Shown here piece by piece: positions 38,489-45,571 of a stretch of DNA of 64,000 nt. The stretch is from positions 1-64,000 of the forward strand of contig SVFJ01000010.1 in NCBI GenBank assembly GCA_015056925.1. The letters are read 5' to 3'. The notes below the pieces were generated by a model that saw only the letters and a program-made list of their open reading frames with translations, was not told the DNA's origin and made no database searches. The DNA comes from Lachnospiraceae bacterium. Its GTDB lineage: Bacteria > Bacillota > Clostridia > Lachnospirales > Lachnospiraceae. The position numbers and the translations under genes were made by a program. How positions within the stretch are numbered: position 1 is the first letter of the stretch; every line of letters begins with the position of its first letter.

Positions 38489-39565
38489 CTATATCATAAC
38501 TCGATTTCTTCCTTCTTCTTTGCCTTTGTATAAATTCTCGTCGGCTTGTTTTATCATATCTGTAACGGTAAGCTGATTAGAGTGGAAGGATAAGCCTATG
38601 GTGACGGTGAAATGTATTTCATTGTTCTGATAAATGACAGATTTGTTTTCAATCTCCTGGCGAATGCTTTCGAACTCCTGACAAACTTCTGACTGTTCTT
38701 TTTGATATTTTCTATAGAAGATGAGGAATTCTTCACCACCCCATCGGCAGGCATGGAAGCTGTTGTTTTCGGCATGCTTACGCAAAAATATATCTGCTAC
38801 AGCCAAAAGGACTTCGTCACCTGCATCGTGTCCGTAGGTATCGTTAATCTGCTTGAAATGGTCAATATCTATCATGGCAATGCACATCTGATGCGGAGTC
38901 TTGGAAAACTCATCAGAGGCAGAGTGTAACAGCTCTTGCATGCGTCTTCGGTTTCGCAGTCCTGTTAGCGGGTCCCGGTTTGCTGTATCTAAAAGTGCTT
39001 TTTCAAGATGGAATACGGTATTGCTGTAAATCAGCAGATATCCCATGATAAAGGCAAAGGTGATAAAAGCGTTTGACAGGTAGAAGGTATTAGCCATTTC
39101 CTTTGGCAGAGAAGGATAAAATGGTTCATGAGTGTTGGTCCATATTTTCATTGCATAGAAAGTAACAACAAGGAGTGCAAGAATGCCAACTGTTTTTTTG
39201 CGGATTTTATAATTTCTATTTACATAGTAATCACAGAAAAAAACAGCAACAGTAAAGCTGAAGCAATACAATTGAAAGCCGTAATCCCATCCAAAACATA
39301 ATAGAGAAAGCAGTACAAAAAGATATATTTCAATGTAAAGAATGATAATATAAGCATAAGCCCAGTTTTTATATAAAACATAATAAGTAAATATATAGGT
39401 TGATATACTGAGCCAGCTAAAATAGTATAACAAATCAATATTGTTCAATTTGAAAAATATAGCAAAAGAAATATGGCATAAAAGTAAAACAGTATTAACG
39501 AGATAGATTCTTTTTATTACATAGGGGTCGAAGGCTTGACGCCGATTATAAGGAATTATATTCAT
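38489..39565 (-). CDS. Membrane diguanylate cyclase (GGDEF)
   Basis: A 358-residue protein with about six membrane helices (about 15-190) and a C-terminal GGDEF domain (about 195-355). The active-site signature GGEEF, the RDPLTGLRNRR start and the DIDHFKQINDTYGHDAGDEVL block are intact, so it should make c-di-GMP from GTP. No RxxD inhibitory site is obvious before GGEEF. ATG at 39565 was preferred over an in-frame GTG at 39574, which sits only two bases after AAAGG. Its 3' end abuts the tandem 94-bp elements. Confidence 0.9.
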   Translation of the reverse strand: MNIIPYNRRQAFDPYVIKRIYLVNTVLLLCHISFAIFFKLNNIDLLYYFSWLSISTYIFTYYVLYKNWAYAYIIILYIEIYLFVLLSLLCFGWDYGFQLYCFSFTVAVFFCDYYVNRNYKIRKKTVGILALLVVTFYAMKIWTNTHEPFYPSLPKEMANTFYLSNAFITFAFIMGYLLIYSNTVFHLEKALLDTANRDPLTGLRNRRRMQELLHSASDEFSKTPHQMCIAMIDIDHFKQINDTYGHDAGDEVLLAVADIFLRKHAENNSFHACRWGGEEFLIFYRKYQKEQSEVCQEFESIRQEIENKSVIYQNNEIHFTVTIGLSFHSNQLTVTDMIKQADENLYKGKEEGRNRVMI

Positions 39566-39670
39566 AATGTTCACTACCTTTCTGAATCAATACTTAGTAA
39601 TATTATAACATATATTTTAATTATTTGAAAAAGATAGTGACAAATGAAGTAAAAAGAGTTATTCTATAAG

Positions 39671-43587: not shown

Positions 43588-44157
43588 GTGGATAAGATAA
43601 AGGCACAGTCAATTATAGAAGCGGTATTGTTTGCGATGGGGGATTCTGTAGAGATTTCTAAGCTGGCACATGTTTTGGAGATGGAGCCTAAGGAGATTCG
43701 TGAGCTGATTGCCCAGATGAATATTAAGTATGAAGGGGAAGAGAGAGGCATTTATATTTTAGAACTTGAGGATTCCTTTCAGCTTTGTACAAAGCCGGAT
43801 TTGTATGAGTATTTGATTAAGATAGCTAAGGCTCCGAGAAAGTATGTTTTGTCGGATACTTTGTTAGAGACGTTATCAATTATTGCTTACAAGCAGCCGG
43901 TTACGAGATTGGAGATAGAGAAGATTAGAGGTGTCAGCTGTGACCATGCGGTAAATAAGCTTTTGGAGTTTGGTCTGATACAGGAGCTTGGGCGTCTTGA
44001 TGCACCCGGAAGACCTTTGTTGTTTGGAACGACAGAGGAGTTTTTGAGAACCTTTGGTGTGAAGTCATTGGGAGACTTGCCGGTTTTGAATCCTGAGCAG
44101 GTGGAAGACTTTAAGCATCAGGCAGAAGAGGAATTGCAGATTAAGTTAGATATATAG
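43588..44157 (+). CDS. scpB: Segregation and condensation protein B
   Basis: Winged-helix partner of ScpA in the Smc complex, 189 residues. IIEAVLFAMGDSVEISKLA at the start and ETLSIIAYKQPVTRLEIEKI / GVSCDHAVNKLLEFGLI in the second winged helix are diagnostic. GTG start at 43588 behind AAGGTAGG. 58 bases after scpA and 10 before the TetR-Hpt gene. Confidence 0.97.
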   Translation: MDKIKAQSIIEAVLFAMGDSVEISKLAHVLEMEPKEIRELIAQMNIKYEGEERGIYILELEDSFQLCTKPDLYEYLIKIAKAPRKYVLSDTLLETLSIIAYKQPVTRLEIEKIRGVSCDHAVNKLLEFGLIQELGRLDAPGRPLLFGTTEEFLRTFGVKSLGDLPVLNPEQVEDFKHQAEEELQIKLDI

Positions 44158-44167
44158 GGGAGGAACC

Positions 44168-45124
44168 ATGGTTAAGTTAAATGGGGATATTACAGATAAG
44201 GATTCTTTGATTTCTGACAGCATTGGTCAGAAGATTTTGGCGGCTGCGATACGTATTATTCGTGAGTCGGGATATGAGAATCTTACGATTAGAAAGGTTG
44301 CCAAGGAGAGCGGCTGCTCGAATACGGCAATTTATATGAGATTTGAGGATAAGGATGCATTGGCAGGTGCGGTGGCGGCACTTTATTCGGAACCGTTTCT
44401 TCTTATGATGGAGGAGTTGTATCGGGATGAAGATGACTGTGCTACGAATTTAAAGCGTATGTTTAAGAGTGCTATGCTGACTACCCGTAAGATGGATTTG
44501 GAGTCTATCCGTATGCAGATGTATTACAGAGGGCGTATTCCGATGCATGAGAATCCTTTTGTGCAGAAGATGGCAGCCTTTTTTGGACGGGCAATGGAAA
44601 AGGGAGAACTTAGGCCTATGAATCCTGAACTGGTGGCATTTACAATCGTGTCAGCATTTTGGGGGATTGCGTATATGCTCAATGTTAATAAGATTCAGGA
44701 TGAGGCTTCACTGGATGAGATGCTGACCATGCAGGTTAAGATTTTGCTGGACGGTATGCGTAATGGTCCGGTATCAGAGCTGAAGGAAGATTTCTGGGAT
44801 GTGTTGAAGCGACAGAACGTAGATGTTGACAAGGCTTTGGAACGTATGAAGGGAAATAAAGAGGCCTATAAGGCGTTTTTGACTGAGTTCTTTGAAGACC
44901 CGGATTTTGAGATGCTGCAAGAGAGCATTGAAGTTGGTAATGTGCGAGAGGCATTTGACTGCGCACATGGTTTGAAGGGCATGGCAGCGAACCTTGGCTT
45001 GGATTGCGTACATGCACCGTTAAGTGTTTTAGTGGAGATTTTGAGAAAGGGCGTGCTTGATGGGGCAACTGAGGCATATGAGGAGGTTGCAGCTGTAAGC
45101 AGTCGAATTAAAGAGTTGTTGTAA
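44168..45124 (+). CDS. TetR-type DNA-binding protein fused to an Hpt phosphotransfer domain
   Basis: A 318-residue protein with an unusual two-part build. Residues about 18-70 form a TetR helix-turn-helix (LTIRKVAKESGCSNTAIYMRF), followed by a TetR-type helical domain to about 200. The last 100 residues are a four-helix Hpt domain with the phosphorylation motif AHGLKG (H267). Hpt domains shuttle phosphate between receiver domains; joined to a TetR repressor it suggests DNA binding gated by a phosphorelay. The next gene, 15 bases on, is a lone receiver protein, the natural partner. GGGGAGG ribosome-binding site 5 bases before the ATG. Whether H267 is phosphorylated is untested. Confidence 0.82.
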   Translation: MVKLNGDITDKDSLISDSIGQKILAAAIRIIRESGYENLTIRKVAKESGCSNTAIYMRFEDKDALAGAVAALYSEPFLLMMEELYRDEDDCATNLKRMFKSAMLTTRKMDLESIRMQMYYRGRIPMHENPFVQKMAAFFGRAMEKGELRPMNPELVAFTIVSAFWGIAYMLNVNKIQDEASLDEMLTMQVKILLDGMRNGPVSELKEDFWDVLKRQNVDVDKALERMKGNKEAYKAFLTEFFEDPDFEMLQESIEVGNVREAFDCAHGLKGMAANLGLDCVHAPLSVLVEILRKGVLDGATEAYEEVAAVSSRIKELL

Positions 45125-45139
45125 AAGAGGTAGATTATT

Positions 45140-45571
45140 TTGAATAATGGGGTATTGAATTTGAAGATGAATCACAAAATATTAGTAGTAGATGATAAGG
45201 GTATTAACCGATATATGCTTGGCGAGATTTTTAGAGACCGTTATGAGATACTGGAGGCTGCCGGAGGCGCTGAAGCGATAGAGATGATTGCAAAGGAAAA
45301 GGATGAGCTTGCGATTGTACTATTGGATATTATTATGCCGGGAGTGAACGGATTTGATGTTTTGGCATACATGAAGGAACATCAGCTGTTGGATACACTT
45401 CCTGTTATTGTGGTGACGGATGACTCGACAGATGAAACCGCAGGCAAGGCTTTTGCGTATAAGGTAGCAGATATGGTGATTAAGCCGTACGAGCCGCGTA
45501 TTATTAAGCGACGTGTACAGAATATTATAGAGCTTTATACCTATAGAAGAGAATTGGGATTTGCGCAATAA
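45140..45571 (+). CDS. Stand-alone response-regulator receiver protein
   Basis: A receiver (REC) domain of about 125 residues with no output domain. The acidic pair (VVDD), phospho-acceptor LLDIIMPG (D63 from the TTG start), the conserved Thr (VVTDD) and Lys (VIKPYEP) are all present, so it should accept phosphate. A TTG start at 45140 has AGAGG 9 bases upstream; an ATG at 45167 also gives a complete domain but lacks a good site. It is probably the phosphate donor or acceptor for the Hpt domain of the preceding protein; no kinase is nearby. Confidence 0.88.
   Translation: MNNGVLNLKMNHKILVVDDKGINRYMLGEIFRDRYEILEAAGGAEAIEMIAKEKDELAIVLLDIIMPGVNGFDVLAYMKEHQLLDTLPVIVVTDDSTDETAGKAFAYKVADMVIKPYEPRIIKRRVQNIIELYTYRRELGFAQ

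Follow-up and report, generated by a model that had tools for sequence, protein, structure and literature searches.

The window analysed here, a stretch of 64,000 nucleotides from a Lachnospiraceae bacterium (contig SVFJ01000010.1, positions 1 to 64,000; genome G000 below), carries on its forward strand a single open reading frame (44168..45124) for a protein of 318 aa that joins a TetR-type repressor to an Hpt domain. Its upstream neighbour is scpB (43588..44157, forward strand; SMC_ScpB at 188 bits), which served as the marker of this locus across genomes. Along the fusion, with all parts on the same strand, the TetR helix-turn-helix occupies residues 20-69 (44225..44374), the TetR C-terminal (ligand/dimer) domain residues 70-200 (44375..44767; all-helical in the predicted structure model), a flexible linker residues 201-208 (44768..44791; pLDDT <50 at 201-207) and the Hpt domain residues 209-318 (44792..45121). 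The model places helices across 209-317, those of the Hpt region lying at 231-242, 245-256, 259-275, 279-293 and 300-317. The codon of H267, the expected phospho-histidine, is found at 44966..44968 within the motif AHGLKG.

An earlier sequence-only reading of this DNA had described a TetR helix-turn-helix and ligand domain running unbroken into an Hpt domain with AHGLKG, and the single 318-aa frame and its Pfam matches agree with that description. TetR_N scores 44.1 bits in the window protein against a Pfam cut-off of 24, whereas the Hpt score is marginal, at 23.9 bits just below the cut-off of 24.6 and at 26.6 bits, above it, in a genome-scaled search. Failure of the C-terminal region to score as Hpt in profile searches had been set beforehand as the result to count against the fusion; TetR_N and Hpt were both matched at E<=0.01 in all 13 of the 14 orthologues that were scanned (G414 being left out), the best Hpt E-value being 2.2e-8. 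H267, K270 and G271, and with them the HxxKG motif, are invariant in the 13 fusions aligned (13/13). The all-helical C-terminal domain typical of the TetR family is also present, as judged from the structure model and fold comparison. Domain content and conservation thus support the earlier proposal that one-component DNA binding is here joined to a phosphorelay.

The fusion was found in 14 of the 38 genomes of the genus, 12 of them with a complete gene, one with the gene cut by the contig end (G417) and one by the contig start (G414). Two related loci lie on Lachnospiraceae MAG contigs (L033 on JAFPAQ010000143.1, from dairy cattle rectum, and L034 on CAMBAN010000059.1), in the same place as the loci of G407 and G417. 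A chance or decaying joining of genes with no linked function would be in keeping with a fusion confined to one genus: among the matches listed, no full-length fusion was seen in the 395 other-genus genomes of the family sample (397 genomes), nor was one seen at E<=1e-14 in 392 genomes of the order, with the five best candidates per genome scored in both searches and the listed matches being lone Hpts, other TetR proteins or larger Hpt proteins. Conservation contradicts such an origin, which is considered very improbable. The fusion forms one open frame in all 14 genomes, which rules out a chance fusion or an assembly artefact, its sequences in the 13 relatives are 46-55% identical, and dN/dS in the computable pairs (0.02-0.35) points to purifying selection on all three domains. 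Mean pairwise identity is 0.78 for the helix-turn-helix, 0.69 for the Hpt domain and 0.49 for the middle domain, falling to 0.24 in the linker region (197-208). No description of a TetR-Hpt fusion was found in the open-licence full texts searched, including the available portion of PMC3018481, and nothing was found there on phosphorelays or histidine phosphotransfer in Lachnospiraceae.

The lone receiver protein is encoded directly downstream, at 45140..45571 on the forward strand (Response_reg at 72.8 bits), with its start uncertain between 45140, 45158 and 45167. Its acidic pocket, phospho-acceptor aspartate, threonine and lysine are all present and no output domain follows Response_reg, as the sequence-only reading had held; D18, D19, D63, T93 and K115 do not vary among the 11 orthologues aligned (11/11), the codon of D63, the expected phospho-aspartate, lying at 45326..45328 (forward strand). 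The gap of 15 bases given earlier applies only to a TTG start at 45140. Since the receiver orthologues begin about six codons later, a start at 45158 is indicated, and the gap then becomes 33 bases. The expectation that the receiver would be conserved beside the fusion was borne out: among the 38 genomes an orthologue occurs in exactly the 14 with the fusion and in none other, never without the TetR half, and the two genes adjoin in 13, with both at contig ends in G417. These orthologues are 60-74% identical in the 13 relatives, whereas the next-best receivers reach at most 49%.

The fusion had further been assigned to the scpAB operon. This holds by position in the window, where the gene begins 10 bp after scpB, and in eight more of the 13 fusion genomes read, the gap in these nine being <=19 bp or replaced by an overlap, but not in the other four (G412, G408, G407 and G417), where 121-195 bp separate scpB from a fusion with its own promoter. 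The linkage is therefore positional and not universal. scpB was matched in 34 of the 38 genomes, and the pair is absent in 16 further relatives with the scpB locus assembled, the region after scpB being read in 15 of these. Of the four genomes with no scpB match, G414 has the fusion and none was found in G406, G409 and G410.

In five genomes (G418, G397, G431, G403 and G402) scpB is immediately followed by the gene of a bare Hpt (116-124 aa, 52-59% identity), which lacks the preceding TetR half as well as the receiver gene behind it. The TetR half and the receiver sit on opposite sides of the Hpt, yet both are missing in all five. In the Hpt tree, whose internal supports are weak to modest, the bare Hpts nest among the fusion Hpts, and the fusion is represented in each of the two main clades of the ScpAB tree (midpoint rooted; 31 taxa, without G398, G420, G405, G406, G409, G410 and G414), on which the fusion state requires at least four changes. 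Loss is therefore the simpler reading and a late origin of the fusion from a bare Hpt is disfavoured; a joint loss of the TetR half and the receiver, with the Hpt retained, is probable, and the five genomes may stand for one or two such events.

Joint retention and loss with the TetR half mark the receiver as the evident partner of the fusion, and it would exchange phosphate with the Hpt domain, although it may be only a phosphate sink. A different division of labour would have the TetR half sense a small ligand as in ordinary TetR proteins, with the Hpt domain and receiver acting as a separate phosphate reservoir or as a readout of the ligand. The complete C-terminal domain, which matches the ligand-binding structures of FadR, QacR and EthR2, and the flexibility of the linker in the model are consistent with this. 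That domain is, however, the most variable of the three, with 17 invariant columns of 131 against 26 of 50 in the helix-turn-helix and 44 of 110 in the Hpt domain, so that one conserved ligand is not suggested, and the joint retention or loss of the TetR half and the receiver also counts against this reading. We regard this alternative as unlikely.

Each of the four gaps with a promoter of the fusion's own holds a TTGACA...ATAAT promoter followed, after the -10 box, by two AACNNNGTT-like palindromes 21-22 bp apart, the second palindrome starting with GAC in G408. The paired palindromes were first noticed here, and the motif then pointed to further sites in these genomes. By their position near promoters they are candidate TetR-type operators. 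The bare operator pattern occurs in 8 places against 6 for a reversed-pattern control, so its frequency was not used as evidence and reliance was placed instead on context, on co-occurrence and on a promoter-plus-operator model built from sequence (R1; 75 positions, nine promoters from G412, G408, G407 and G417). R1 was run on the 38 genomes; of the first-look candidates, which numbered up to about 4000 in a genome, the top 128 were scored, and the E-values are rough.

At E<=1e-5, R1 found 22 places in 15 genomes: 13 of the 14 with the fusion, none of the five with only the Hpt and none of the 16 with neither, which gives 0/21 relatives lacking the TetR half in which scpB is assembled. The remaining two were among the three genomes with neither scpB nor fusion found (G406, 66% complete, and G409, 78% complete), and the one fusion genome with no site at this threshold was G421 (71% complete). 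The Fisher p for co-occurrence of R1 sites with the fusion is 9e-9 and becomes 5e-7 when the four training genomes are left out, both values being inflated by kinship. At the loose threshold of E<=0.1 some match appears in 27 of the 38 genomes, the best of these looser ones being that of the bare-Hpt G418 (0.001) and additional ones in G407. In the 395 other-genus genomes, with 12 candidates per genome scored under stricter filters, R1 gave one match at 1e-4, a hairpin followed by T's that lacks the RNA. The 22 strong sites comprise four own promoters of the fusion and 18 starts of RNA-like stretches; nine of them trained the model and the 13 outside the training set are all of the RNA kind. 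All 22 promoters have two sites 20-23 bp apart, with a half-site one base off in two of them (the own promoter in G408, and G414). Within the window, isolated AACRNYGTT sites are about as frequent as chance predicts (4 found, 3.5 expected), R1 gave nothing below E 0.47, and no candidate operator of the window gene's own was found nearby.

All 18 sites other than own promoters start a probable noncoding RNA of about 180-505 nt, with 3' ends placed at T-runs; in these RNAs GUGUAAAAGG is repeated and UUGGGG(G)A lies in hairpins. The candidate of the window genome lies on another contig than the fusion (G000:C16:9489-9888, minus strand), and that of L204 runs off its contig. Adding four RNAs of bare-Hpt genomes and one more of G417, whose sites are altered, gave 23 for analysis, and 21 of these have a stem of at least 6 pairs at the 3' end. 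The stretches are presumably transcribed. A small protein in place of an RNA was also considered; the longest sense frames, of 20-56 codons in 22 of the 23, argue against it, though short peptides may still be encoded. No Rfam family came close to its gathering score in the 18 loci scanned out of 23 (L159, L170, L173, L203 and L204 being left out), which include 16 of the 18 RNAs at R1 sites. At L203:1602-2106 (G407:C189) the RNA has 11 GTGTAA copies, and its repeats leave a sense frame of 85 codons that reads as a lysine-cysteine repeat. The second RNA of G417 (L173:1806-1970, G417:C63) is also of this kind, but its operator region is rearranged (AACAAC...GTTGTT). A conserved protein of about 94 aa with no Pfam match (L121:1727-2008 and relatives, L152-L181) is encoded in 32 of the 38 genomes, often convergent with the RNA.

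All five Hpt-only genomes keep the RNA together with its promoter but lack the second operator (5/5), the first operator being intact in G418 and altered in the other four. Their best R1 E-values are 0.001 in G418, 0.01 in G397 and 0.016 in G402, with the promoter and first operator matched in G418 and G397. The change in G397, from GTT to ATT, is shared with the second operator of the fusion-bearing G414 and is therefore weak evidence by itself. G399, the nearest genome to the fusion-bearing G416 in the ScpAB tree, has neither the fusion nor a strong R1 site, and no RNA was found beside its 94-aa gene, where G416 has one. RNAs in genomes lacking the fusion were sought by R1 and beside the 94-aa gene only; there, a count of a short RNA motif in 12 of the 16 genomes with neither fusion nor Hpt and in G410, five of these 13 being read, gave one copy, in G405, judged by eye to lie at a coding end.

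These observations bear on whether the operators could belong to some other, undetected regulator of the same distribution, with co-occurrence reflecting shared ancestry. In its favour, the genomes are related, with those at least four changes of fusion state on the tree. Against such a regulator stand the operators at the fusion's own promoter in four genomes, the absence of both fusion and strong site in G399 when its close relative G416 has both, and the disappearance of the second operator from Hpt-only genomes though the RNA stays. We regard it as quite improbable.

We consider it fairly likely that the fusion acts as a repressor of the TetR type, that its own C-terminal Hpt domain couples it to a His-Asp phosphorelay, and that it binds the paired AACNNNGTT operators and controls CsrB/Rsm-like RNAs. 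This reading builds on the observed domains, the pairing with the receiver, the operator-promoter unit and its co-occurrence with the fusion, and a conserved RNA-like family with repeats, hairpins and terminator-like ends. Two dimers of the fusion would probably occupy each operator pair, whose sites are spaced by 20-23 bp and closely follow the -10 box, a placement from which we infer repression. Its conserved targets would be the genes for noncoding RNAs of about 180-500 nt and, in some relatives, its own promoter. The phosphorylation state of H267, set through the receiver or a hybrid kinase, would then govern DNA binding. Output control through a terminal phospho-Hpt would be unusual. The window genome has seven Hpt matches, one of them CheA-like (724 aa, with Hpt and CheW domains).

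What the RNAs act on is a separate question. CsrA is present in 35 of the 38 genomes, and FliW was found beside csrA in all 20 csrA loci examined, one locus per genome (20/20; Pfam 128 bits in G000). The CsrA of G000 keeps, from its sequence, L4 and R44, residues highlighted in the available part of a CsrA paper (PMC7652899). In G427, G428 and G429, none of which has the fusion, there are five, seven and eight CsrA matches each, most of a more divergent kind. The RNAs share with CsrB and RsmXYZ the many GGA motifs that lie partly in hairpin loops (4-21 GGA per RNA, before trimming of one end), but no curated RNA model matches the 18 loci scanned and the ACA before GGA, fully conserved in the SELEX consensus as given in the accessible text of PMC7652899, is replaced by AAA in the repeat GUGUAAAAGG; for this reason they are said to "work like" Csr RNAs and are not classed as such. 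By this analogy they may act like CsrB or RsmZ by titrating CsrA, which we hold to be conceivable, with slightly more doubt than confidence.

The fusion may work as proposed and the RNAs may nevertheless act on something other than CsrA. Their purine-rich AAAAGGGGA repeats could, for example, make them decoys of Hfq or of the ribosomal anti-Shine-Dalgarno sequence, or they could encode short peptides. The motif statistics can be read both ways; in these tests the related RNA sequences are not independent and the motifs were picked after the RNAs had been viewed. Against dinucleotide shuffles of the 23 RNAs, UUGGGG(G)A occurs 38 times against 2.3. The strongest motif is GUGUAA(A/G)AGG (49 against 0.1), with GGA only moderately enriched (209 against 160 +- 9) and, per single RNA against mononucleotide shuffles, exceeding chance in just some of them (z from -0.5 to 3.8), the RNA of G000 itself standing at -0.5. 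The replacement of ACA by AAA, the 85-codon frame of L203 and the distribution of CsrA, whose presence does not track the RNA, also favour another target; two of the three genomes with no CsrA found (G402 and G431, both 86% complete) have the RNA. On the other side, RUACARGGA at >=8 of 9 positions occurs 42 times against 3.8 +- 1.9, and the flanks of the 34 distinct UUGGGG(G)A sites pair at 4.88 of 6 positions against 3.08 +- 0.19 with the 3' flanks re-dealt, the maximum over 2000 shuffles being 3.85. Hairpins with varying stems, as seen around this motif, are expected of CsrA-type ligands, and the retention of L4 and R44 in CsrA agrees with such a role. A target other than CsrA is therefore a serious contender, though we lean against it.

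If CsrA is nonetheless the target, as in the mechanism proposed above, these Lachnospiraceae might hold a complete Gac-Rsm analogue assembled from unrelated parts, in which a TetR repressor under phosphorylation of its own Hpt domain directly controls CsrA-titrating sponge RNAs and FliW is also used; this broader picture is tentative and rather doubtful. Were it true, it would add a family of CsrA-sponge RNAs in a Gram-positive lineage, and a transcription factor whose output is switched by the phospho-Hpt itself. The available passages of the open-licence full-text literature on CsrA, FliW and sRNA describe no sponge RNA from Firmicutes. The TetR-Hpt arrangement puts the DNA-binding output on the phosphotransfer protein rather than on the response regulator, and its apparent targets form an RNA family with no Rfam match that resembles the CsrA sponges of Gammaproteobacteria. 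With the positions of the RNA loci, the operators, FliW and CsrA established in these genomes, the question would be directly testable.

The nearest parallels in function are GacS/GacA-RsmY/Z and BarA-UvrY-CsrB/C of the Gammaproteobacteria, in which transcription of multi-GGA small RNAs is likewise under phosphorelay-linked control (excerpts of PMC4682653 and PMC7652899). Here, by contrast, a TetR-type DNA binder carries the Hpt domain, the candidate operators are placed for repression and not activation, and the candidate regulator is no receiver-HTH protein and has no output of the GacA type. FliW is described as anti-correlated with BarA-UvrY (PMC4682653, in part), whereas the host genomes here carry FliW, with CsrA titration being only presumed. 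The HptB pathway of Pseudomonas aeruginosa also ends in control of an Rsm RNA, rsmY, but its signal passes through a response regulator whose output is a phosphatase 2C, through a probable anti-anti-sigma factor and through GacA, and the available text describing it mentions no DNA-binding domain on HptB, which the fusion has (PMC2904497).

In its helix-turn-helix and all-helical C-terminal domain the fusion resembles the TetR repressors QacR and FadR. No Hpt domain is described among the best 60 of 108 sequence matches to the PDB or among 50 fold matches, the latter spanning almost only the TetR part and so being uninformative on the Hpt domain. QacR binds as paired dimers on one operator region, as is proposed here for the fusion. 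Transcription regulators that contain PRDs (LevR/LicR type) are, like the fusion as proposed, controlled by histidine phosphorylation, through a PRD and phosphate from PTS proteins where the fusion has an Hpt domain.

Within Lachnospiraceae, the closest resemblance is to modules of a lone Hpt gene (about 115-125 aa) beside a receiver-HD gene, and the receivers nearest to that of the window, after its orthologues, include receivers of such modules. Of the 38 lone-Hpt loci examined, 15 have a gene with a receiver domain no more than 1.5 kb away, or 13 of 36 when two repeated loci are set aside. The modules differ in that the receiver bears the HD output and the Hpt is bare, whereas in the fusion locus the DNA-binding output is joined to the Hpt and it is the receiver that is bare. 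In three loci of relatives (L091:289-3995, L092:2427-5998 and L093:2268-5843; domains scanned on L091 only) such a pair forms part of a four-gene unit of FIST, MCP-signal protein, lone Hpt and receiver-HD, an apparent complete cytoplasmic sensing phosphorelay. At L102:2300-4829 (G000:C107) a lone Hpt gene comes immediately after one for a CheA-like kinase. Another lone receiver, which shares 44-49% identity with that of the window, was seen at L094:3079-3492 (G000:C41), L095:2842-3261, L099:2850-3290 and L104:2580-3026, and in three of these four loci it adjoins, by eye, a small-sigma-factor-like gene and an rlmB-like methyltransferase gene. The window itself also encodes, at 38489-39574 on the opposite strand and five kilobases upstream of the fusion, a GGDEF protein (134 bits) whose N-terminal half is hydrophobic.
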